This document shows positions 1 through 44,196 of a DNA stretch of 64,000 bases, piece by piece. Both the position numbers and the translations under genes were made by a program. The notes beneath the pieces are model-generated. The model saw only the letters and a list, made by a program, of their open reading frames with translations, had not been told where the DNA came from and ran no database searches. Each line of letters starts with the position of its first letter. Position 1 is the first letter of the stretch. Origin of the DNA: a virus; the IMG/VR virus record IMGVR_UViG_3300013101_000005, positions 1 to 64,000 of that record; one strand, given 5' to 3'.

Positions 1-582
1 ACTGCGTTGCGCTATTGTTCTAGAATTCAGGAACTTCAGTAGCAGTTCCGTAGGAGTATCGTTGCACTTCACTTGCCAAAAAAAAATTCTCGTCACTATT
101 TATCGTCATTGCACTACCGTTGCACAACGGTTGCAGTTAGGTTGCAGGAATCGGAATCTAAGGTTGCAACTACGTTTCACTATCGTTTCAGAAATCAGGA
201 GCTTCCGTTGCTACCACGTTGCAGTTAGCTTGCCAAATAAAATCTCGTCACTATTACTCGTCACGGCTGCAACCGAAGTGCAACTGCAACGCAACGGTAC
301 TGGAATACCCCTCCCGATAAGTGCAACCGTTGTACTGGAATAGTAGATCCGTTGCCCTGATTGGATGAATGAGGGGTTGATCCGTTGCAGTTACATTTTA
401 CCTGGCGGAGTGATGGCCAGGTCGATTGCCATATCCAAAAATGACCAGCGGGTTTTGAGAAATTTGCAGATAATCATATAGAGGATTGCATTACCCGGTT
501 TCATTTTGATTTGATTCCATTCCGTTCGGTCGGTCGGTCGGATTCTGATTCTTGCGCTGGGTCGGTCGGTTGACACAAAAAA

Positions 583-604
583 GGGGAGGGTTCAAACCCT
601 CCCC
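583..604 (-). terminator. Distal copy of twin terminator
   Basis: Read on the minus strand, this is a 22-nt near-perfect hairpin (GGGGAGGG...CCCTCCCC) followed at once by TTTTTTGTGTCA. It is the second of two nearly identical intrinsic terminators downstream of the leftward gene that ends at 657. Confidence 0.85.
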
Positions 605-619
605 AAATGACACAAAAAA

Positions 620-641
620 GGGGAGGGTTCAAACCCTCCCC
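620..641 (-). terminator. Proximal copy of twin terminator
   Basis: The same 22-nt GC-rich hairpin followed by TTTTTTGTGTCA on the minus strand, about 16 nt after the stop codon at 657. The hairpin and U-tract are duplicated as a unit of about 37 bp, giving a strong double stop for the 657-1235 gene. Confidence 0.9.
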
Positions 642-656
642 GATTGCAGTTGTTAA

Positions 657-1235
657 CTACTTTTTGTCGGCCTTCTTTGCCGCAATCGCCTCGGCTTTTG
701 CTTCCTTTTCAATTTTGGCCATTTTCGCTTTCAAGTCACCGAATCCAACCTTGCTTCCGGTTGCGGTAGTCGCAACCTTGCGACCGCGGGACTTACCGCG
801 GTTTCCGGAGAACACTTCAATCCAAGGTTTTGCAGCTTCTCCGGGCCGATGGACTCCGGCCAGTTTCCGGAAGGCATTGCGTAACCAATCCACTCTGCAA
901 CCGTGTCCAGTTTCATTGAAGGAAACAAATTCAACCGTTTTGTCGGAATCGGTTGCAATCCCTTTGCCATCCCTTTTCACTATCTGGAAGTTATCTTCCA
1001 AAACGGGGAATAACATTGCCATCTCCGCCAGTATGGCGAAGACTTCCATTTCGGTCGGATAGGCGGGTTTCGATTTCTCCTTATCCGTCCATTGCAAGTT
1101 ACCCTCTGCATCCTTCAATTGCGTCTCCATTGCGGAATCCACGATCAACCGGGAAACAGTCTTGACGGTTGCCATAGCATCGGAGTCAGTGAGGCAAAGA
1201 ATGATCGGCTGGGTTGCGGTTAACATCGTTCGCAC
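657..1235 (-). CDS. Hypothetical protein with Lys/Ala-rich C-terminal tail
   Basis: A 192-aa protein that I do not recognise. The N-terminal two thirds look globular, with a hydrophobic helix around MEVFAILAEMAMLF near residue 65. The last about 30 residues are Lys/Ala/Glu-rich and probably helical, as in some DNA-binding tails. The start is supported by GAAAGGTG about 7 nt upstream of the ATG. It is a self-contained transcription unit: an operator-like inverted repeat and a possible promoter lie upstream and twin terminators downstream. Its base composition is richer in GC than the main phage block, so it may have a different history or separate control. No function is proposed. Confidence 0.7.
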   Translation of the reverse strand: MRTMLTATQPIILCLTDSDAMATVKTVSRLIVDSAMETQLKDAEGNLQWTDKEKSKPAYPTEMEVFAILAEMAMLFPVLEDNFQIVKRDGKGIATDSDKTVEFVSFNETGHGCRVDWLRNAFRKLAGVHRPGEAAKPWIEVFSGNRGKSRGRKVATTATGSKVGFGDLKAKMAKIEKEAKAEAIAAKKADKK

Positions 1236-1253
1236 CTTTCAAGAAAGAAATCA

Positions 1254-1286
1254 AGTGTCAATCGGCTGAATTGCTCGGTTGACACT
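1254..1286. promoter_or_regulatory. Operator-like inverted repeat and possible leftward promoter
   Basis: The half-sites AGTGTCAA (1254-1261) and TTGACACT (1279-1286) form an inverted repeat with an inner CG/CG pair. On the minus strand a TATATT -10-like box (1290-1295) lies just upstream, so the repeat would overlap the start of transcription and early leader of the 657-1235 gene. That arrangement fits a repressor operator. The corresponding -35 (TGGGAA) is poor, so the promoter itself is uncertain. Confidence 0.5.
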
Positions 1287-2131
1287 TACAATATACAAGG
1301 GGTTGATTTCAGTTCCCACTTTTTTTCCATGTTTTTTTGGACCTTTTAGTTAACTTGATGCAGCAGAACAAGATACACCGAAATCTTTTTTTTTGACTTT
1401 GCTTGATTTCCTGTTTTTTACCCTACGGGAGGGTTGCAATAAACTCAAAAAACCTTGCAACCCATTGAAAACAAACAAGATACAACGTTTTGTCCATCTT
1501 GGATTGCACTAATAATCAGCATAACTCTAACAAAATCAATGGGTTACAGCGATCTAAAAAACTCGAGTTTCACTTAACTTGTTTAATCCCTTGCAGTTAC
1601 AAGAATCAACCATTGCAGACCCGCCAGGTAAACGGTTGCAATTAAAGAGCTTACATCGTTTGTTGTTGCGTTGCTTTTCGGTTGCAATTGTTTTTCCTTG
1701 ACGGTTGCGGTTGGGTAGGTTGTTTAGTTGCAATGACTTATAAGAAAACATATTCTCCCGGTTGCGCTTTGTTAATAATGACTATTATTTATAGTCGTTG
1801 TTAGGTAACGATTTAGCTTGAATTTGATATTTGAGATTGTTGCAGAGTGGTTGCGGTTGGCTAAGTCGTTGTGCCGGCATCAGTTGCACTGATTCCCCCC
1901 TTGCCAAAAATTTGATATTTGGTTGCATTGCATTTCCTCTGGCGTTACGGTATAAAAAAATCCGGAGGGTTTTGAAAAGTGGCCACGTGGTAATTTGAGG
2001 GACCGACAATTTGGCAGATAATATGACACAAGATGGCAGAACTGCCTTGTGTTTAATTATATAAAAAAATCCTCAATACTGACAAAATGACAGGACTGTG
2101 GCATGAATATTGCGTCAGTTGTGTAGTATTA
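1287..2131. other. Intergenic region with GTTGCA motifs, no gene seen
   Basis: No supported coding sequence. GTTGCA/TGCAAC recurs (about 1433, 1456, 1634, 1680, 1729, 1840, 1884 and 1920). The 12-mer CCGCCAGGTAAA near 1620-1632 is the inverted copy of TTTACCTGGCGG near 397-408. An imperfect hairpin at 2026-2052 (11 bp with a 3-nt bulge) lies about 80 nt beyond the last gene of the leftward block, but no U-tract follows it on the minus strand. Confidence 0.5.
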
Positions 2132-2326
2132 TTAGGGGCGTTTCATCCATTTTCCTTTAGGGGTCTTCTTGTATAAGACTTTTACTACATTCCATGCATT
2201 TTCTACTGATTTGTTGGGTTTGTTAACTTTTATACTTCTATTGTAGACACGAAGCCAAATATGCCTGGCCAACATAGGTAAAGCCTTTACTGATCGTGGT
2301 ATTTCATCTATATCTAGTTGTCTCAT
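2132..2326 (-). CDS. ChaB-like small protein
   Basis: A 64-aa protein matching the pattern of the ChaB family (PF06150): ALPMLARHIWLRVYN in the first half, then ENAWNVVKVLYKK and a closing GKW. ChaB was named as a cation-transport regulator in E. coli, but small ChaB-like proteins are frequent in phages and mobile elements and their role there is unclear. It is the last gene of the leftward block. Its start overlaps the upstream stop by ATGA, so it is probably translationally coupled. Confidence 0.72.
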   Translation of the reverse strand: MRQLDIDEIPRSVKALPMLARHIWLRVYNRSIKVNKPNKSVENAWNVVKVLYKKTPKGKWMKRP

Positions 2327-3273: not shown

Positions 3274-4209
3274 TCATAAAGGCAGGTTTTCAATAATATC
3301 AATCCTCTCCCCCAACCATTTCACCACAGGAACGGCCATAGAGTTCCCCAGTGCTTTATATCTATGTCCATCTGGACATTCTTCTTCGCTTTTGTTTCGC
3401 CATTGTATTCTAGTGTAGTTTTTTTGAAATCCCTGAAGTTTTTCACATTCGGCAGGGGTAAGTCTTCTGACAATATCATTATAATTTACAGCCATAGGAC
3501 CTTTAGTTTCGCAAGGCATGGTTATTTCTGAGGATATTGGATCTTGTCTAGGGTGGAAGGCTATCAGGTGTCCTGCTTGGGCTTGGTTATCATCTGCGCC
3601 ACACGTTCCAACGCCGTTTGCAGTAAGTGCGGCAACTTTCTTTTCCTTGCTTTTGCTCTTTTTAGGACTCCTTTGCAGGCTTTTGGAGTCAAAGAGTACC
3701 GATGCGGGACGGGTCCAGTTTCCAGGACATGCGACAACAAAGACTCTTTTTCTTCGTTGGGGCACGCCGAAGTATTGAGCGTCAAGTGTTCTGTAAGCAT
3801 ACCCAAGCCCGAGTTCAACCAGCCCCCCGATGAAGGCTCCAAAATCCCGTCCTTTGTTAGAAGACAGGACACCGGGGACATTTTCCCAGATAACCCATTT
3901 GGGTTGTGTTGCATCAACAATTCTAAGAAACTGTAGGGCCAAGTTGCCACGAGGATCATCCATACCGTTTCTGAGTCCAGCAACTGAGAAGGACTGACAT
4001 GGTGTTCCTCCGATAAGGACATCGACATTTGCTTGTTCATCCCATTTTACTTTCGTTATATCGCCTAGGTCTGGTACATTTGGGTAGTGTTTTTGTAGGA
4101 CTTGTTTGGGGAACGGGTCATTTTCTGCAAACCAGACGGGTTCCCAGTTTAGATGTTTCCAAGCCACAGAGGGGGCTTCGATACCTGAACATATAGTACC
4201 ATATTTCAT
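3274..4209 (-). CDS. dcm: DNA cytosine-5 methyltransferase (Dcm type)
   Basis: Transfers methyl from SAM to C5 of cytosine in DNA; in phages this usually protects against host restriction. Motifs are in canonical order: I near the start (GTICSGIEAPSVAW), IV with catalytic Cys in GGTPCQSF (about residue 71), VI ENV (about 109), VIII QRRKRVF (about 151-157), IX RRLTPAECEKLQGF (about 248-261) and X ALGNSMAVPVV (about 286-296). The target-recognition stretch is short, giving about 311 aa in total. The ATG at 4209 is preferred over an in-frame TTG; it overlaps the upstream stop in TGATG. Confidence 0.93.
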   Translation of the reverse strand: MKYGTICSGIEAPSVAWKHLNWEPVWFAENDPFPKQVLQKHYPNVPDLGDITKVKWDEQANVDVLIGGTPCQSFSVAGLRNGMDDPRGNLALQFLRIVDATQPKWVIWENVPGVLSSNKGRDFGAFIGGLVELGLGYAYRTLDAQYFGVPQRRKRVFVVACPGNWTRPASVLFDSKSLQRSPKKSKSKEKKVAALTANGVGTCGADDNQAQAGHLIAFHPRQDPISSEITMPCETKGPMAVNYNDIVRRLTPAECEKLQGFQKNYTRIQWRNKSEEECPDGHRYKALGNSMAVPVVKWLGERIDIIENLPL

Positions 4210-4340
4210 CAATCGTCTTTACGTTCTTCCATTTCATCGACACGTTTTTTTAATTTAAAGTGTCTCCAAACCAACCAGCCCACTAACCCGATACCTCCAA
4301 TAAAGGCAACTCCCATAAACACATTAACAATAACAAACAT
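4209..4340 (-). CDS. Single-pass small membrane protein
   Basis: A 43-aa reading frame, short but convincing. It begins with about 25 hydrophobic residues (MFVIVNVFMGVAFIGGIGLV and on), followed by a charged cytoplasmic-like tail rich in Lys, Glu and Asp. AAAGGATG lies about 8 nt before the ATG, and the stop overlaps the methyltransferase start (TGATG). The role is unknown. Confidence 0.7.
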   Translation of the reverse strand: MFVIVNVFMGVAFIGGIGLVGWLVWRHFKLKKRVDEMEERKDD

Positions 4341-7342: not shown

Positions 7343-9871
7343 TTACTTCTCACATTCCTCTAATATTGCGGCTGTCGTTCCTGCCCAGTAAGCTATAACT
7401 GACAGATTGATGGTTTCCCCCATATGTTTAGTCAAGTAGTTGTTGTAGTCTTCTAAGATGAGTTGTAATTCTGTAACTGGTACTTCCTGTGCAGGCCATC
7501 CTCCACCACGAGCTATCGTATCTGCGTCTGCTATGCCCGTAGATCCCTTGGTTATCAAATACGGCATCGGCATAGTTCCGTTTACCCACACACACCAGAC
7601 GTAGGTGGTGTCCCTAGACCCGTCGTAGAACTTGGCGAAGGCCATTGGTGGGTTGTCTGTGCTTATTGTTACAGATTTGGGGACAATTTTGCCGAAATCC
7701 AGATTCCGTGATGGAGATTGGAGGTCCCTTCCTTTCGTCGTGAACTGGGCCGACCCGATGCCGATAGATGCGAGTGCCTCGCCTGTCGTTCCTGATGAGT
7801 CATGGGTTGCAAACCACTGGATGATCGGTGGATCAACTCTACTGTTGTCAAGCCATCCGGCAACTTCCATTATGGCCTCAACTAACTGGGATCGGCTGGC
7901 CGGGTATATATTTGAGAAATGGAAATCCTCAAGCATAACGCCGTCGTAATATCCGGCGGTGGCCTTAATGCGGCCAGCACTTCCGTTGACAACATTTAGG
8001 AAGTCGCTTCTCCCGGCAGCACGACGGCAGGCATCAGGCCACTCTCGTACAAACTTCAGATATAGTTCCCTCTCATCTGGGTCTTTGTCGTATGGAATTC
8101 CGTCCTCATCCATGTCGAGGGTGCCGAGATCCCCATCCACAGACCACGCCGGGTAGTCGTCGCCATTCAGATAGTCAGTTAAGAACCCGACATGGCTCTT
8201 TAGCCCATCTCGAACTTTTATGCGGTCTATGTAGAATGCCGCAAGGGTATCGGCTATTCCGGGTGCGGCTAGATTATACATCCAGATCGGCCTGTCGCCA
8301 TGGATTCCCATGGTATGATTTCCGTCAGTATCATACAACCAGAAATCGAGAACCCCGTCGTCGCCCTGATACCCGTCGCTGTTGTTTTCTCCGATGTTCC
8401 ATAGCTGCGTATACATAGTCCCGGCAGTTTCCCACTCCTCAAATACGCCATAGACAAACACGTAATTCAGAAAGATGAGATTCGGATTTCTTACCCGGAG
8501 GGAGTCCACTATCCCGTCCATGCCTGTGCGACTAGCGAGCATATAATAGTGCCCAGTAGTGTATACGTCTGTGAAGTTCCCGACTGAATCGTAGCCAGCT
8601 TCGGTCCATATCGGCGTATCATCGTTTACCCACGTTCCGTAGATCGGCATATCGAATTTCCACAGTGATGGGGGGATTACTTCCTGTGCAGGCCATCCTC
8701 CACCACGGCTCAGAGTATCTGCTCCGTCATAAGAGGTAATGAGGTAGGGCCAGATATAGTCTGTTGCTACTGCACGTACAACATATCTTTTTTGCCCATC
8801 ATCAAAGAAAGCAGATACGGTATCTCCTGACCATACAGGTTCGGAGGCTATCTTACCTAACGATAGTTTTCTATCAAGGTTTCTGAACTGGAAATTACAC
8901 ACTCCATTAGCTATACTTGCTAGTGCTTCTGAGGGGAACCCAATACTGTCATTCTCTCCACCTTGGAACATTAACAGCGGGGGGTTTACTCTTGATTTAT
9001 CAAAGCCATCAGTAGCTATTACAGCCTTTGCCCAATGGTTGGGCTTAGGGTAGTACAGATTCACTAATTCATACATTCCGCCATCCCACAAGTGAGCATA
9101 CTCTGCGTTATTTGCATAGTGTACATTACCATTAGGCATTAACAGGAAGGTAGGCTCGCTACTGAAAGCATTTCTAAATGCTTTGGCTATCTGGTAAGGG
9201 TATGCGGCATTTTGTTCCGCATCACCCGGATCTTCACTCGCAGGGATTCCATTTCTATTAAAATCAAGATCTCCTCTAGGAGTAGGGAATGGCCATTGGG
9301 GATAAGGCACAGTCATCCAATCCAAGAACATTCCTGAATGAGGTCGTACATGCCCCATATTATACATCCATTTAGCGTGTATTTTAGCAACTCCTTCAGC
9401 CAGCCCCGGTGCTCCACAGTTAAGGAACTGTACGGGGATTGTCGGGTCATTTGTTGCTGGTCCTACAACAATATCTCCATGATAATCTCTTAGCCACCAA
9501 TCGTTATCGTTAACCATATTGTAGAATTCAGTATAGAAACCGCCAGCATGTTCCCATCCCGGTCTTAATCCGTATACGAACGCATAAAACAGAGGGATGA
9601 AATCTGGGTTTCTTGTTCTTACTGAGTCAATAAGGCCAATGTGCTTATCATTAAGATATAATTCGTGACCAAAAATCATCATATCGAATTCTGCAATGTC
9701 ATCATAATCTTCTGAGGTATATCCATCTCCAAACTTATACCATATATTATCTCCATATATAGGTAGGTCTAATTGCAGAGGCTTTGTATCTGCATTCATA
9801 ACAACTCCAGCCATCAATCCAATAGCTACAATTGTACTGGCCACTATTGCAGGCCATTTCATTTTCTTCAT
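7343..9871 (-). CDS. Secreted protein with two tandem glycosidase-like domains
   Basis: An 842-aa protein with an N-terminal signal/anchor (hydrophobic residues about 6-24) and two homologous domains of about 390 residues (about 33-400 and 405-800). Each starts with (L/F)D(L/M)PIYG and ends RGGGWPAQEV. Strand-end motifs such as GMFLDWM/VGFLTDY and YDGVMLED resemble TIM-barrel glycoside-hydrolase-like (GHL) proteins. Each domain has a D-x-N/D-x-N/D-G loop (DFNRNGIP, DMDEDGIP) that may bind calcium. Substrate unknown. The DNA looks richer in GC than its neighbours, more so in the second domain, suggesting acquisition. A polysaccharide-degrading or surface role is inferred. Confidence 0.7.
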   Translation of the reverse strand: MKKMKWPAIVASTIVAIGLMAGVVMNADTKPLQLDLPIYGDNIWYKFGDGYTSEDYDDIAEFDMMIFGHELYLNDKHIGLIDSVRTRNPDFIPLFYAFVYGLRPGWEHAGGFYTEFYNMVNDNDWWLRDYHGDIVVGPATNDPTIPVQFLNCGAPGLAEGVAKIHAKWMYNMGHVRPHSGMFLDWMTVPYPQWPFPTPRGDLDFNRNGIPASEDPGDAEQNAAYPYQIAKAFRNAFSSEPTFLLMPNGNVHYANNAEYAHLWDGGMYELVNLYYPKPNHWAKAVIATDGFDKSRVNPPLLMFQGGENDSIGFPSEALASIANGVCNFQFRNLDRKLSLGKIASEPVWSGDTVSAFFDDGQKRYVVRAVATDYIWPYLITSYDGADTLSRGGGWPAQEVIPPSLWKFDMPIYGTWVNDDTPIWTEAGYDSVGNFTDVYTTGHYYMLASRTGMDGIVDSLRVRNPNLIFLNYVFVYGVFEEWETAGTMYTQLWNIGENNSDGYQGDDGVLDFWLYDTDGNHTMGIHGDRPIWMYNLAAPGIADTLAAFYIDRIKVRDGLKSHVGFLTDYLNGDDYPAWSVDGDLGTLDMDEDGIPYDKDPDERELYLKFVREWPDACRRAAGRSDFLNVVNGSAGRIKATAGYYDGVMLEDFHFSNIYPASRSQLVEAIMEVAGWLDNSRVDPPIIQWFATHDSSGTTGEALASIGIGSAQFTTKGRDLQSPSRNLDFGKIVPKSVTISTDNPPMAFAKFYDGSRDTTYVWCVWVNGTMPMPYLITKGSTGIADADTIARGGGWPAQEVPVTELQLILEDYNNYLTKHMGETINLSVIAYWAGTTAAILEECEK
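7481..7510. repeat. 30-bp exact repeat, copy 1
   Basis: An identical 30-bp sequence recurs at 8679-8708. Both encode the RGGGWPAQEV end of the two tandem domains in the 842-aa protein. The exact identity contrasts with strong divergence elsewhere in the domains. Confidence 0.85.
8679..8708. repeat. 30-bp exact repeat, copy 2
   Basis: The partner of the repeat at 7481-7510, offset by 1,198 bp, which is about one domain length. It could mediate expansion or contraction of the domain array. Confidence 0.85.
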
Positions 9872-24766: not shown

Positions 24767-25585
24767 CTATACAGCGTTTGTAAGAAGCGTCTTTCTTTTA
24801 TCTTTAGGAAGTTCTGTAAATCTACCACGATTGGGATGGCTACAATCATTACATCTCCAACGTCTATACATTCCAACTTGTGTATATTCAAATCCCTTTT
24901 TGATTAAGTTCTTAGAACCACAAGCTGTGCAACAGGGGTCACTATCACTGACGTATAAACCAAAATTAGGATGCCGTTTATCCCAAGGACGTATTTGTAA
25001 ATAAACTTCCTCTAATAAATGTACATCTTGTATATTATAATCCATCATAGTTTTCCATGCTTTAGTATCACCATTCATACACCCTATCCATAGATCAAAA
25101 TCTGTCTTATTCTTTTTACCAAGACCTAAGTATTGTCCTATATAGTCCAACTTATTTGATGTAAGACGAAATTCTCTACGTGCTGTTGTTAGGGTATCTA
25201 TAATTTTGTAAGGATCGGGTGGAGGGAAATTATGATACAAAAATCTTGCATTAACCATTGGTACATCAAATCGTGTTCCATTGTGTGCAACAACCATATC
25301 TGCTTCATTAAGTAAATCCCATAGAGGTTCTAAAAGTTTTAGATCATTTTTCTTATCTTTCTTATACATACTTTTAAAATCTGGTAACTTAAAGTTTATA
25401 ATCTTATCTTCATGTAACCATTTAGCCGCCCAACACAAAATAAATAGATCCTCTTTAATCATATCTATTGGGATATACTTTTGTCTTAGACTCCATATGT
25501 GGGTTAATACGGGGGTTGTCTCAATATCAAATACTAATATCTTAGGCCCGTCATATTTTTGTTTTGCTTTTTTACGTTTAGCCAT
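24767..25585 (-). CDS. DnaQ-like 3'-5' exonuclease with zinc ribbon
   Basis: A 272-aa protein. The DEDD exonuclease motifs are ILVFDIETTP (Exo I), VVAHNGTRFDVPMVNARF (Exo II) and YNIQDVHLLEEVY (Exo III, Tyr type). The C-terminus has a four-cysteine zinc ribbon (CCTACG...CNDC). This YprB-like RNase H-fold nuclease could process replication ends or degrade host DNA. The ATG at 25585 with AAAGG upstream is preferred over a longer frame. Confidence 0.82.
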   Translation of the reverse strand: MAKRKKAKQKYDGPKILVFDIETTPVLTHIWSLRQKYIPIDMIKEDLFILCWAAKWLHEDKIINFKLPDFKSMYKKDKKNDLKLLEPLWDLLNEADMVVAHNGTRFDVPMVNARFLYHNFPPPDPYKIIDTLTTARREFRLTSNKLDYIGQYLGLGKKNKTDFDLWIGCMNGDTKAWKTMMDYNIQDVHLLEEVYLQIRPWDKRHPNFGLYVSDSDPCCTACGSKNLIKKGFEYTQVGMYRRWRCNDCSHPNRGRFTELPKDKRKTLLTNAV

Positions 25586-26054
25586 TAGTTGCCTTTCTTT
25601 GCCTATATTGTAGAATAAACTTTCTAGTCTCATTCATATCAATCAAAGTGCCGGGACATGTTTTGTTTCTTTTCAGTTTTTCCCAAGGTGTGTCCCTGTG
25701 CCCTATTACATTTTTTAATGGTATATTATATGCATTCATTAAATCAGATACTAAAGAAGATAACAATTGTAATTGAATATCTGTCCACTCAATATGATCC
25801 CCATGCCCTGTTACACAAATACCTATACTTTTCCTGTTGAAACCATAAGCATGGGCTCCATGATAATGTAGGGGTCTTCCTAATTCTATACTAGCTGTGT
25901 CATCAAACATTGAACCAGTAATTACATAATGATACCCTATGGTTTCCCATCCATTTTCTAAGTGCCATTGTGTTATAATTTTAGCATTTGCTTTGCCTCT
26001 AAAAGCCGCTGTATGTAATACAATATGTGTTGGAAATTTCTTAAATTCTCTCAA
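25578..26054 (-). CDS. Endolysin, N-acetylmuramoyl-L-alanine amidase
   Basis: A 158-aa single-domain Amidase_2/PGRP enzyme, like T7 lysozyme. Zinc ligands are visible as His14 (IVLHTAA), His119 (VIGHRDT) and Cys133 (KTCPG); GYHYVI near 40 supplies the catalytic Tyr region and HYHGAHAYGFN the substrate groove. It cleaves the lactyl-alanine bond of peptidoglycan at lysis. There is no signal peptide, so a holin is needed; a small two-helix membrane protein is encoded two genes upstream. Confidence 0.92.
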   Translation of the reverse strand: MREFKKFPTHIVLHTAAFRGKANAKIITQWHLENGWETIGYHYVITGSMFDDTASIELGRPLHYHGAHAYGFNRKSIGICVTGHGDHIEWTDIQLQLLSSLVSDLMNAYNIPLKNVIGHRDTPWEKLKRNKTCPGTLIDMNETRKFILQYRQRKATNG

Positions 26055-33325: not shown

Positions 33326-33401
33326 TGGAGCTGACGGGAGGACTTGAACCCCCAATCTTCTCGTTACAAATGAGAGGCTCTACCTGTTGAGCTACGTCAG
33401 C
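33326..33401 (-). tRNA. tRNA-Thr (anticodon TGT)
   Basis: A 76-nt cloverleaf on the minus strand. The acceptor stem GCTGACG/CGTCAGC is perfect, with a GCTC/GAGC D stem, anticodon loop TTTGTAA (anticodon TGT at 33366-33368), T arm GGGGG-TTCAAGT-CCTCC, discriminator T and encoded CCA. One A-C mismatch closes the anticodon stem. It reads ACA codons, which are common in this AT-rich genome. Confidence 0.95.
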
Positions 33402-33408
33402 TATAGTC

Positions 33409-33493
33409 TGGTGCGTCCGGAGGGAGTTGAACCCTCATTCCAAAAGGAGCAGGTCCCTAAAACCTGTGTGTATACCTATTCCACCACGAACGC
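33409..33493 (-). tRNA. tRNA-Leu (anticodon TAG)
   Basis: An 85-nt cloverleaf with the long variable arm of a leucine tRNA (CTCC-TTTT-GGA). Acceptor GCGTTCG/CGGACGC, anticodon stem CAGGT/ACCTG around TTTAGGG (anticodon TAG), T arm GAGGG-TTCAACT-CCCTC, discriminator A and encoded CCA. It lies 7 nt from tRNA-Thr and is surely cotranscribed. It reads CTA codons. Confidence 0.95.
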
Positions 33494-33596
33494 AATATAT
33501 GGCACAGGACTTGCAAGTATTGTACCAATAAGTCTCCATGTAAATAACACGGAATTGGGATATTTTGCCCATTTTAAACTTTTTTGTTGAAAAAAC

Positions 33597-39121: not shown

Positions 39122-39448
39122 ATGGCAAAACGAGGAGAACATAAAAGAACGAGTAAGAAAGACAGCGAACTTTCACCAATGGGTAGGTGGAGAAGAAAGT
39201 ATAAAGATAAATATCAGAAATGGCGCAAAAAATATAAGCAAACAAATAAGTCAAACTCAAGGAATAAGGCAAGACGAATACTTATGAAGAGTGGCAGAGC
39301 TAAGGTTTGTACAAAGTGTGGTATTCGTCCTGAGTCTCGTAGGTTAGAGGTACATCATAAGAATGGTAAACCGTTGGATAACAGACTGTCCAATCTCGAA
39401 TGGAGATGTTCAAAATGTAATCCACGAGGAAGGGCCGCAAGTAAATGA
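39122..39448 (+). CDS. HNH endonuclease
   Basis: A 108-aa protein with a strongly basic N-terminal half and a C-terminal HNH motif: CTKCG, LEVHHKNGKPLDNRLSNLEW and CSKCN give the catalytic His plus two zinc pairs. Such free-standing HNH proteins are homing or packaging nucleases; the site just ahead of the recombinase rather than near the terminase favours a homing type. Confidence 0.8.
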   Translation: MAKRGEHKRTSKKDSELSPMGRWRRKYKDKYQKWRKKYKQTNKSNSRNKARRILMKSGRAKVCTKCGIRPESRRLEVHHKNGKPLDNRLSNLEWRCSKCNPRGRAASK

Positions 39449-40242
39449 CTCCCAAAGAAGTAGAATTTAAAGATATTCTTAGGAAATTAGGCAGAAGTGA
39501 TAATACAATAAAAGCGTATGTTAGGGACTTATCCCTTCTTTTTAAGAAGCACGATGAAATAAATAATAAAACTATACAAGATATGATATTTACAATGTCA
39601 GATAACGGTATAAAGCCTTCTACGGTTCGTAGATTTATTTCCTCTGTAAAGACTTATTGCTCAATTTTTGAGATTGAAATAAATTTTGCTAAAATATCAA
39701 AACCTAAGTTGGTACAACGGGAGTCTTCTTATATAACTGATACTGTTTTTACAAATGGTATTGGAACAATACTTGCAGAACATAATACAACACAACAAGA
39801 CAGGGAGTTTAAAAGTTTAGTATTTAACTTCCTATACAAAACAGGGATGCGTGTTTCTGAATTATTAAATCTAACGTTGGACAATTATAATACTGAAACA
39901 CATTTCATACAAATTATTGGCAAGGGAAACAAAGAAAGAAAAATTCCAATTCATGACACATTAGTATACGCTTTTGATCTGGCTTGGTTTTTTTCTAGAC
40001 TAGGTAGTGTTCATTATAATACTGTATTATACTGGACTAAAAAGTATTTTGGAAAAGAGTACTCACCACATAGTTTTAGGCATGGGTTTACAACAAAGTT
40101 GGTGAAAAAGGGGACTAGTGAGCGTGCTGTTCAATCTGTTTTAGGACACGCTTCCTTTGTTACAACCCTAAGGTACTTTCACTTAAACGAGGACGAAATT
40201 AGGAAAGAAGTAATTTCTGCATTGGAGGAAGAAAATGATTAA
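39445..40242 (+). CDS. Tyrosine recombinase / integrase
   Basis: A 265-aa protein. The N-terminal SAM-like core-binding domain covers residues 1-90 and the catalytic domain 110-265. All active-site residues are visible: Arg136 (GMRVSELL), Lys160 (GKGNKERKIPI), His209/Arg212 (HSFRHGF), His235 (LGHAS) and Tyr244. Compact, like XerC/D. It could integrate the phage, resolve genome multimers, or invert a segment. No attachment site was recognised. It overlaps HNH and SSB genes. Confidence 0.9.
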   Translation: MTPKEVEFKDILRKLGRSDNTIKAYVRDLSLLFKKHDEINNKTIQDMIFTMSDNGIKPSTVRRFISSVKTYCSIFEIEINFAKISKPKLVQRESSYITDTVFTNGIGTILAEHNTTQQDREFKSLVFNFLYKTGMRVSELLNLTLDNYNTETHFIQIIGKGNKERKIPIHDTLVYAFDLAWFFSRLGSVHYNTVLYWTKKYFGKEYSPHSFRHGFTTKLVKKGTSERAVQSVLGHASFVTTLRYFHLNEDEIRKEVISALEEEND

Positions 40243-40662: not shown

Positions 40663-41373
40663 GTGTATTACGTATATAAAACAACAAACCTAAAGAATGG
40701 CAAGGTTTACATTGGAATTACGGGTAGGGATCTGGATGGTGGGGATCCCTACCTTGGATCTGGTAAACATTTACTTAGTTCTATTAAAAAGTATGGTAAA
40801 AAGAGGTTTACCAGAGAAATACTATTAAGACACGAAGATCTTGAATTGGTTGCTTTTGTTGAGGAAGAGCTGGTTGATGAAGAGTTTGTTGCTAGAAAAG
40901 ATACTTATAATATTGTTATTGGTGGGGGGTATCCCCCTGTGCATAAAGGGGAAGCCCATCCTCTTTTTGGGGTAGGCCATTCAGAGGAATCTAAGAAAAA
41001 AATGTCAGATAATAGTCCAGACATGTCAGGAAAGAATAATCCAAGATATGGTTGCAAACTTTCAGAAGAAACGAAAAAAAAGATGGTAGAAAATCGTATT
41101 GCTCCATCAGGCAAAGACCATTATATGTATGGACGGACAGGAAATAAAAATCATTTTTATGGGGGGCACCATACAGAAGAGACTAAAAAGGCTCTTTCTG
41201 AGGCAAGGCGAGGGGAGAAGAACCCTATGTTTGGTACAAAAAGTCCAAATGCAAAACGTATTGAGATTGATGGTATAAAATATGAAACACAACAAGAAGC
41301 TGCTGATGCTTTAGGAGTGGAAAGGCACACCATTTGGAGATGGAAAAAACAAGGGAAGCACAACATAAAATGA
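40663..41373 (+). CDS. GIY-YIG homing endonuclease
   Basis: A 236-aa protein. YYVYKTTNLKNGKVYIGITG is the GIY-YIG core. Several NUMOD3-type repeats follow (EETKKKM, GKDHYMYG, HTEETKKALSEAR) and the C-terminus is a NUMOD1-like helix-turn-helix (TQQEAADALGVERHTIWRWKKQGK). It starts with GTG preceded by GGAGTG. No intron is visible around it, so it looks like a free-standing homing gene between ssb and the next GT9 gene. Confidence 0.9.
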   Translation: MYYVYKTTNLKNGKVYIGITGRDLDGGDPYLGSGKHLLSSIKKYGKKRFTREILLRHEDLELVAFVEEELVDEEFVARKDTYNIVIGGGYPPVHKGEAHPLFGVGHSEESKKKMSDNSPDMSGKNNPRYGCKLSEETKKKMVENRIAPSGKDHYMYGRTGNKNHFYGGHHTEETKKALSEARRGEKNPMFGTKSPNAKRIEIDGIKYETQQEAADALGVERHTIWRWKKQGKHNIK

Positions 41374-42287
41374 CAAAACTAACCAAAAACATAGTTACGG
41401 CATCTGGCCTTGGTGACCTCTTTGTGCTTTTGTCGAGATTGGATGATTTTTTTCTAAAAAATACTGAATATGACAAAATTAAATATTGGTCGTGGATCCA
41501 CCACCCGGAACTTGCCAGAGAATTAGTCAGTCATTCAGAACACGATGTAAGTATTTTTTCAGTAGAAGATATGACAAATTATCTAAAAGAGATAATACCG
41601 AAAGAGCACTTAGAAAAGGCATCAGAACTTTTTATACATCAAAAAGTCTCTGGTATTGGTGTAGATAAATACATGGAATTTATTTCTAGGTTCTTCCCTA
41701 ACATCGAACAATGTGTGTGGCTACCTGTATACAAAAAGTATAAAACCACATATCCTTTTCAGTTGGATGTACCTATACCTAAACGAGAAAAAGAATATAT
41801 ACTTGTCCACCCCTTTTCTACTACAGTTAAAACAGAAAAGGCTGAAAGAACTTGGTCAACAGTGCGGTGGGGCAGAACAATAAAAATGATAAGTTCCTAC
41901 TGTTCAAATGAAGACATTATTCTTATTGGTTCTTACAAAGATAAGATTGAGGGGCCTAGGGACTTCCCTTCTAAACGTGTTATTGATTTAAGGGGGAAGA
42001 CCTCTATTACAGAAACTATAGGGCTTATAAATGGGGCTAAGGCTGTTATAGGTATAAACTCTTGGCCAGCATTGATGGCCTATTGGAATAATACTCCTAC
42101 ATATGTACAATGGTTTGTACAACAACAGTTCTTGGATACACATGTCCCAAAGCCTGTTGATAAAATGAACCATGTAGTTTTTGAGTTTCCTCTTAAATCT
42201 GGGCCGCAGAATGAGGGGGCACACCCTACAGTAGATGCGGCATGGGTTAATATAAGGAAGGTACTTGATGCAACAGTTACTATTTGA
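41370..42287 (+). CDS. Glycosyltransferase family 9-like protein
   Basis: A 305-aa protein. KNIVTASGLGDLFVLLSRL at the start, ILVHPFSTTVKTEKAERTWS in the middle and INGAKAVIGINSWPALMAYWNN near residue 240 follow the GT9 layout, with Asn/Ser in place of the usual Asp/His in the last motif. It is the third GT9-like gene and the only one in the rightward block. Overlaps the homing gene by ATGA. Confidence 0.72.
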   Translation: MTKLTKNIVTASGLGDLFVLLSRLDDFFLKNTEYDKIKYWSWIHHPELARELVSHSEHDVSIFSVEDMTNYLKEIIPKEHLEKASELFIHQKVSGIGVDKYMEFISRFFPNIEQCVWLPVYKKYKTTYPFQLDVPIPKREKEYILVHPFSTTVKTEKAERTWSTVRWGRTIKMISSYCSNEDIILIGSYKDKIEGPRDFPSKRVIDLRGKTSITETIGLINGAKAVIGINSWPALMAYWNNTPTYVQWFVQQQFLDTHVPKPVDKMNHVVFEFPLKSGPQNEGAHPTVDAAWVNIRKVLDATVTI

Positions 42288-44196
42288 AAATATAAATAGT
42301 AAAGAACTGTGGTTTCATAAAGAGGGGTGTAGATATCATATTATAGATACAGAAGCGAAATTGTCTAGAATGTGTGATATCTTAATGTCTTGTAAGTTAA
42401 TATCTCTGGACATAGAAACAACTGGGCTTGATATAGGAACATCTGAGATACTCGGTATTTCCTTTTGTCCAGAAGTTGGCCTTGCTTTTTATGTACCGTT
42501 AGCACACTATGGGGATGGTAATATAAGCAAAGAAATGTTCATTTCTTATTTGGCTTCCTTGTTGGAAAGTAAACCAATATGTGGGCATAATCTTAAATTT
42601 GATTATAAGTTTATTAATAAAAAATTAGGTATAAAAATAAATTGTGTTCATGATACTTTTATTATTTCAAAACTTCTTGATGAATTTGATTCATGCAAAC
42701 TAAAATACTTAGGGGAAGTGTTATTTAATTATACAGTGGTTGAACTAGCTGAATTAATGAAGCCATATAATTTAAAAGTGAATGAAGGAGATATGCTGAA
42801 GGCAAGTGAGATGTATGAATATGCTTGTCAAGATGTTGATTTAACTTTACGATTATTTAAATTCTTTTGGTTAGAGATGGAATGGCGACCGGATTTTATA
42901 TATGAACTTGAAATAGATTTAATATATTCTATTGCTGCAATGGAAACACGTGGTGTAAAAGTTGATTATGCTTTCCTTAAAGAGCTAAGAACAGAGTACC
43001 AAGATAAAATAGATGTACTTGGGGATAAAATAAAAGGTATTCTTGAAGTACGAAAAGATTTTAATTTAGAATCAAACCAAAAGTTTGGGGAAGCTGTTGT
43101 ACATAAGTTCCCTTGGATGAAAACAAAATTAGTATATACACAAAAACAGGGTATTGCTAAGATGGATGAAGAACATGTTAAACGATATATTGTTAGGTTC
43201 GATGAGTATTTACCTTCTAATGATTTATCTGATGATCAAAATCTTTTTAGATATTTTAAAGAACGTAAATCAATGCTTAATTTGGTTGTTAAGTATCTGA
43301 CTTCTTGGATTACTCGTATTGAAACAAATAAGTCTACCACAATATATACTAACTTTAATTCTCTTGGGACAGATACTGGTAGAATGTCATCAAATGATCC
43401 AAATATGCAAAACATAGCACCAAAAATAAGACATGCAATAATACCAAGAGAGGGGTACTACTTTATCTCTATGGATTATGACCAAGTTGAATATAGGATA
43501 CTTGCTGGTATGGCAAACCTTGAGCACCTAATTGTAGAAATGAACAAAGGTGATGCTGATGTGCATAAAATTGCGGCAAGTCTATTATTTAAAATTGGTA
43601 TAGAAGATGTAACAAAGGATCTAAGAACTAGAGCAAAAACACTTAACTTTGGTTTAATTTATGAAATGGGAATACCGAAACTCGCAGTTGCTCTTAGTAT
43701 ATCAGAGGCAGAAGCTGAAGAACTAAAAGAGCTATATGTAGAAAGATTCCTAAAAAAGACTCCTTGGTTTAAAGATGTAAAGAAATTTGCAAAAAAGAAT
43801 GGGTATGTTTTGACATCTTTTGGTAGGAAGAGAAGAATAGATAATCTTACTTTTCCATATAACCCATACCAAACTGATGAGGAACGTAGAGAAATTCGTG
43901 GTCTTATGGCGGCGGGGTATAGAAAGGCAGTTAATACACCAATACAGGGTACTTCTGCTGACATAACTAAAATAGGGCTTAATACGGTTCATAGTTTTTT
44001 ACAAAAAGGATCTTACGACATACATCCTATATTAGTTATCCATGATGATTTTGTGTTTGAAGTAAACAACAAATATCCTCCAGAGGATATAATCCCAAAA
44101 TTAAAAGATTGTCTTGAGATGCTATTTAAAGATAAGGTAAAACTAACTGTTGATAATAATGTATCAACAATTTCGTGGGGAGCAATAAAAGGATAA
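42268..44196 (+). CDS. polA: DNA polymerase I (family A)
   Basis: A 642-aa replicative polymerase. 3'-5' exonuclease: SLDIETT (Asp48, Glu50), GHNLKFD (Asp112), YACQD (Tyr185, Asp189). Polymerase: motif A SMDYDQVEYR (Asp403), O-helix with Arg453, Lys457, Phe461, Tyr465 and motif C IHDDF (His592, Asp593, Asp594). The usual motif C is HDE, so Asp for Glu is unusual. There is no 5'-nuclease domain. Phe at the position equivalent to E. coli 762 is, from surveys of viral polymerases, often linked with lytic phages. ATG at 42268 preferred. Confidence 0.95.
   Translation: MQQLLFENINSKELWFHKEGCRYHIIDTEAKLSRMCDILMSCKLISLDIETTGLDIGTSEILGISFCPEVGLAFYVPLAHYGDGNISKEMFISYLASLLESKPICGHNLKFDYKFINKKLGIKINCVHDTFIISKLLDEFDSCKLKYLGEVLFNYTVVELAELMKPYNLKVNEGDMLKASEMYEYACQDVDLTLRLFKFFWLEMEWRPDFIYELEIDLIYSIAAMETRGVKVDYAFLKELRTEYQDKIDVLGDKIKGILEVRKDFNLESNQKFGEAVVHKFPWMKTKLVYTQKQGIAKMDEEHVKRYIVRFDEYLPSNDLSDDQNLFRYFKERKSMLNLVVKYLTSWITRIETNKSTTIYTNFNSLGTDTGRMSSNDPNMQNIAPKIRHAIIPREGYYFISMDYDQVEYRILAGMANLEHLIVEMNKGDADVHKIAASLLFKIGIEDVTKDLRTRAKTLNFGLIYEMGIPKLAVALSISEAEAEELKELYVERFLKKTPWFKDVKKFAKKNGYVLTSFGRKRRIDNLTFPYNPYQTDEERREIRGLMAAGYRKAVNTPIQGTSADITKIGLNTVHSFLQKGSYDIHPILVIHDDFVFEVNNKYPPEDIIPKLKDCLEMLFKDKVKLTVDNNVSTISWGAIKG

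Follow-up and report, generated by a model that had tools for sequence, protein, structure and literature searches.

The left end of the window, the stretch of 64,000 bp analysed here (bases 1-64000 of a linear virus record of 98,631 bp, the remainder of which was also analysed), carries a helically phased array of GTTGCA-core sites around an orphan gene of 192 codons (Table 1). The array is real and non-random. We counted 22 copies of GTTGCA or its complement TGCAAC in positions 1-2000 against 48 across the other 96.6 kb of the record, which bears out the claim of an earlier sequence-only reading that about twenty occur in the first 2 kb where about one is expected by chance. In 2,000 dinucleotide-preserving shuffles of 1-2040 the hexamer occurred 1.6 times on average and never more than 7 times, and its count peaks at 5 in the other 2,040-bp windows of the record, so the same density is absent elsewhere. 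The wider contexts and the longer repeated unit proposed in that reading were likewise recovered: the most enriched 7-mers are CGGTTGC and GGTTGCA, indicating a site core somewhat wider than the hexamer, and a diverged repeat contains TCTCGTCACTATT twice, at 88-100 and at 243-255. TTGC/GCAA density is mostly 6-11 per 200 bp and drops to 0-1 at about 2.0 kb. The region is GC-richer, as had been claimed (0.447 for 1-2000 vs 0.36 for the whole window), but GC by itself does not set it apart, as values of 0.40-0.45 occur in some other 2-kb bins. Its description as mostly non-coding is correct but incomplete, as a plausible gene (657-1235, minus strand) takes up about 28% of it. Further features absent from that reading are the exact 11-bp phasing, the higher-order repeat, the AT-rich hairpin block between site sets, the twin terminators and the start of the contig inside the array.

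Table 1 Features at the left end of the window
Feature	Position	Strand	Details
TTGC sites, one 11-bp phase	1-107	+	Sites at 7, 62, 73; phase test
Truncated first copy of higher-order repeat	1-107	+	Offset about 157 bp; MAFFT alignment with 158-263
Left array, one 11-bp phase	108-263	+	GTTGCA at 119, 130, 141, 163, 218
Left-array variants, same 11-bp phase		+	ATTGCA 108; GTTTCA 174, 185; GTTGCT 207; CTTGCC 229
Second copy of TCTCGTCACTATT unit	within 108-263	+	
Inverted sites	268-327	-	TGCAAC at 268, 279, 285, 322
Two more sites, 33 bp apart	351-389	+	GTTGC 351; GTTGCA 384
Two tandem intrinsic terminators, facing left, just 3' of orphan gene	571-641	-	37-bp unit, GGGGAGGGTTTGAACCCTCCCC + T6
Orphan gene, 192 codons	657-1226	-	Probable ATG 1226; ORF opens at GTG 1235
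Palindrome	1253-1287		AAGTGTCAATCG...CGGTTGACACTT, about 27 bp upstream of ATG
Opposed pair of sites	1433-1461		GTTGCA 1433; TGCAAC 1456
Right cluster, first set	1591-1766	+	TTGC at 1591, 1613, 1636, 1682, 1705, 1728 (22-23 or 46 bp steps)
Right cluster, first set, extra TTGC sites		+	1666, 1671, 1762
AT-rich block, candidate melting site	1767-1838		75% A+T
Right cluster, second set	1839-1928	+	GTTGC at 1839, 1850, 1883, 1922
Border	1945-2085		GC and site density fall at about 2.0 kb
Sigma-70-like promoter match, leftward	2085-2056		11/12
First ordinary phage gene past border, ChaB-like	2132-2326	-	NCBIfam ChaB, weak, E 0.034

All 11 TTGC sites of positions 1-265 fall into two 11-bp phases, one formed by those at 7, 62 and 73 and the other by those at 109-230, and none of 100,000 random placements was equally regular. 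Written in rows of 11 bp, the left block begins GTTGCA-CAACG, GTTGCA-GTTAG, GTTGCA-GGAAT, continues with GTTGCA-ACTAC, GTTTCA-CTATC, GTTTCA-GAAAT, and later reads GTTGCT-ACCAC, GTTGCA-GTTAG, CTTGCC-AAATA; the spacers vary and the hexamer cores are retained. Since positions 1-107 are a diverged copy of 158-263, the contig starts within a repeat, and duplication of this repeat could account for part of the regular spacing. A search with the array sub-unit TTGCCAAA..TCTCGTCACTAT found no match.

Among the steps in the right cluster (1591-1928) are ones of 22-23, 46, 11 and 33 bp. Over the whole of 1-2040, DNA stability is lowest in a 70-bp stretch within 1767-1841, exactly between the two site sets of this cluster, and the AT-rich block holds a hairpin-forming inverted repeat (TAATAATGACTAT/ATAGTCGTTGTTA), which is suggestive only because its folding z is about -1.9. 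The cassette has no exact DnaA box, and its two single-mismatch matches are at about chance level. No Rfam match was found in 1-2050, leaving a reading as an RNA gene without support. Among the phage ORFs, one matches Pfam ChaB (E 2.7e-7), in keeping with the ChaB-like gene past the border.

The orphan gene has a ribosome-binding site (AAAGG, 1239-1235) ahead of its probable ATG and encodes a protein whose C-terminus is basic and Lys/Ala-rich. The right arm of the palindrome upstream, CGGTTGACACTT, has CGGTTG in common with the site core, and the palindrome is operator-like and may serve as an operator. We found no relative of the protein in viral or genome contigs, phages, plasmids, PDB, PHROGs or NCBIfam, nor among about 1,900 genomes of five phyla; these negative searches weigh little, because the genomes covered include none known to hold a relative. 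A Pfam match to DUF6257 (E 0.02) was rejected as below the family cut-off, and a single-sequence structure model, computed with no alignment, was unusable (pLDDT 37). No initiator is recognisable at the cassette, the adjacent 192-codon protein being without detectable family.

The rest of the record is that of a phage, with genes for a portal, a terminase-like protein, a PolA-type polymerase and exonuclease, DnaB, DnaG, a Rad52-like protein, ribonucleotide reductase, SSB, a Thy1 thymidylate synthase and a XerD-like recombinase. The polymerase and its exonuclease are encoded by two separate genes, one at 24767-25633 (minus strand) and one at 42265-44196 (plus strand), 17 kb apart, and a GIY-YIG/NUMOD3 homing-endonuclease-like gene (40663-41373, plus strand) lies just upstream of the DNA polymerase region. 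The XerD-like/integron-integrase-like tyrosine recombinase (39445-40242, plus strand) is syntenic in IMGVR_UViG_3300023210_000146, with 49% identity. This syntenic relative is a 30-kb contig with about 30-76% amino-acid identity that covers 25.5-57 kb only and stops short of the left end; the GTTGCA sites that this contig has near 2-3 kb are dispersed and form no array. DnaB relatives were too distant to be of use for comparison. The minimum of the cumulative GC skew lies at 33.5 kb, where gene orientation diverges, so the main origin of the phage may lie elsewhere than in the cassette. Two tRNA genes, Thr-TGT and Leu-TAG, are found at the same place (33326-33550).

A rival explanation concerns the residence of the cassette in this phage and would fit whatever function the array has: there is a nearly even chance that the cassette is an assembly join or the flank of a host or other element, in which case 2 kb from a different replicon or chromosome were fused to the end of the contig. 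Nowhere in the record do tetranucleotide and dinucleotide composition deviate more than in its first 2 kb, which have no 15-mer in common with the rest of it, the motif is lost sharply at about 2.0 kb, the orphan gene has a GC3 of 0.54 vs a mean of 0.23 and the poorest codon fit among the likely genes of the record, and the contig ends inside a repeat, where assemblies commonly break. The suspicion of misassembled host or vector sequence, named in the sequence-only reading as what would refute it, is thus consistent with the foreign composition and codon usage; it found no backing in DNA matches, as neither the plasmid nor the phage collections returned a match of the cassette to a vector or known replicon, and no host match was found either. 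The next most deviant genes, a C5-cytosine methyltransferase (3274-4212, minus strand) and an unknown gene of 842 codons (7343-9871, minus strand), GC about 0.46, also lie within the left 10 kb, so the cassette may have been acquired recently in a variable arm, and the left arm may be a gene-acquisition zone. The 192-codon gene is on the minus strand, as are the genes at both contig ends, and if the map were circular, terminators followed by the array would suit a boundary upstream of a replication operon. Residence in the phage is unproven, a recent insertion being about as likely as an assembly join.

Comparable arrays were found next to primase genes of other phages. Many of the loci returned by fixed-spacing scans for GTTGCA-N5-GTTGCA-N5-GTTGCA are unrelated. 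The ORFs of all loci fetched by motif, about 350, were searched with three primases. Strong primase relatives occurred in six, and all six have a non-coding GTTGCA array 3' of the primase-helicase gene, which is of the Prim-Pol/DUF3987 type in L238, L246 and L235 and of the VapE type in L316, L189 and L227; L242 gave a weaker extra match. Because these loci had been chosen by motif, twelve phage records were sampled by primase protein only, as a motif-independent test. A gap of more than 150 bp follows the primase in 10 of the 12, and in 6 of these 10 the gap has the highest single-hexamer count of its locus, which no window of equal length matches. The hexamer varies by phage in these array loci (L391, L393, L394, L395, L397 and L402): GTTGCA occurs ten times in Paenibacillus LunBun, TGTTGC seven times, within TGTTGCATC-like units, in Staphylococcus phiSa2wa_st1, GTTTCC six times in a Dorea phage, GTTGCC seven times in Streptococcus Javan405, CGTTTA eleven times in Bacuni_F1 and ATTACA ten times in IMGVR 517045. 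GTTGCA itself is enriched in 2 of the 10 protein-chosen phages. The primase gaps of BU2-2 and QT1 gave a marginal hexamer signal and those of BT528P2 and BM127P1 none. As the arrays mark the gaps 3' of primases with a sequence specific to each phage, they are most simply origin iterons, and we regard hexamer arrays 3' of VapE/VirE or Prim-Pol/DUF3987 primases as probable replication origins. This yields a testable rule: phages with a VapE-type primase often have a phage-specific hexamer array 3' of it, from which their origins would be placed by sequence alone.

Four of the protein-chosen loci (L394, L395, L397 and L402) have a common element resembling TATACGCGCGTATAGG, which lies after or within the hexamer array, ahead of the following gene, and may be a second motif of an origin or promoter. 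Nearly identical GTTGCA-aa-GTTGCA/TGCAAC-tt-TGCAAC pairs surround AT-rich centres in L195 (2925-3204) and L341 (6602-6952); no primase was recognised in these two loci, and neither Pfam nor NCBIfam gave a confident match for the genes beside them. Scanning viral contigs for the motif with variable gaps yielded no relatives but mostly coding or tandem repeats, L088, L114 and L103 among them, and a literature search on GTTGCA iterons found nothing relevant.

The best reading of the hexamer sites is a protein-binding array, as we infer from cores retained between varying spacers, from spacings of one to two helical turns and from the similar arrays that follow VapE-type primases. Among the functions that the sequence-only reading had offered for such an array, an origin fits best and a centromere is possible; packaging and immunity roles are without support. 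By the logic of the VapE-type arrays, the window array would best be read as an origin, because two site sets flank the least stable DNA. Our tentative conclusion is that positions 1-2040 are a plasmid-like (iteron-type) replication control region, with a probability of about 40%. PICI origins are described as invariably having an AT-rich region with an iteron set on either side (PMC6092414), and the cooperativity of Rep depends on the helical phasing of iterons (PMC4980987). In the mechanism that we infer for melting, initiation and self-regulation by the cassette, a DNA-binding initiator would bind the GTTGCA-core sites, which, being one or two helical turns apart, would align its molecules on one DNA face. 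The nucleoprotein assembly would then open the AT-rich hairpin segment between the right-hand site sets, where the replisome would be loaded. The 192-codon gene, transcribed leftward, may encode the initiator or a regulator of it and control its own promoter at the palindrome, and the left array beyond the terminators may be an incompatibility-type control cluster that titrates the initiator.

The order of sites with an AT-rich block, a gene with an operator-like palindrome, terminators and further sites recalls the replicons of the P1/F type. These are arranged as iterons, rep gene and iterons, and the second iteron cluster keeps copy number in check through titration or pairing of Rep. Points of likeness are repeat clusters on both sides of one gene, an AT-rich segment bordering the cluster on the upstream side of the gene, direct repeats at helical spacing (an 11-bp phase, and 22-23 bp steps in the right cluster) and CGGTTG of the sites in the palindrome before the gene. 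In contrast to P1/F-type replicons, the window gene lacks Rep-family homology, the cores are of 6-7 bp at 11 or 22-23 bp instead of conserved iterons of 17-22 bp, and there are no clear DnaA boxes. The cassette also resembles PICI/SaPI and VapE-type origins (pri-rep-ori) in that two site sets flank an AT-rich region in the right cluster, and GTTGCA is the hexamer of some VapE-type origins (those of LunBun and phiSa2wa_st1, for example). However, the known arrays lie directly 3' of a primase or initiator gene, whereas no VapE/Prim-Pol-type primase was found in the whole record, the phage having its own DnaB, DnaG and PolA; the window array is also longer, and the CGCGTATA element present in several VapE origins is absent near it. 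As the contig is cut at base 1, a primase or initiator gene may lie further left. That the cassette represents a new self-contained replicon family, with a small orphan initiator unlike known Reps and GTTGCA-core, 11-bp-phased iterons on both sides, in a 98-kb phage with a full replisome, seems to us a long shot.

A centromere-like partition site, in which a ribbon-helix-helix adaptor binds 11-bp direct repeats as ParR does on parC of R1, appears improbable. The exact 11-bp phasing, the unit length equal to that of R1 and the adjacent small gene agree with it, and ParR of R1 requires at least two 11-bp repeats (PMC9426499). However, the ORF scans of the record, two of which list the top 25 families, showed no ParM, TubZ, ParA, ParB or ParR family, and neither a motor nor an adaptor gene was found; the mixed orientations of the sites and an AT-rich melting-type segment between sets are foreign to that design. 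The higher-order duplication of 1-107 and 158-263, the weakly shared spacers and the contig end inside the array would also be expected of an inert 11-bp minisatellite that expanded by slippage and then decayed, with no binding protein. We consider this unlikely: spacer divergence exceeds core divergence, both strands carry sites, a second cluster of them differs in spacing (22-23 bp steps) and context, and the gene enclosed by the clusters is well formed and has terminators. Repeated operators are used by phages, and the palindrome and the promoter match would suit an operator/stoperator region of the phage itself, with repressor or activator sites governing early operons. Yet the dense sites are restricted to 2 kb, with none so dense in the other 96 kb, 22 phased sites exceed usual operators and the composition of the cassette is foreign, which makes this explanation improbable.

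Should the cassette be an assembly join, it would caution users of virus collections. Should it instead be a genuine resident, a large phage that has DnaB, DnaG and a polymerase of its own would carry a second, plasmid-like replication start, which would bear on how phages gain plasmid lifestyles.
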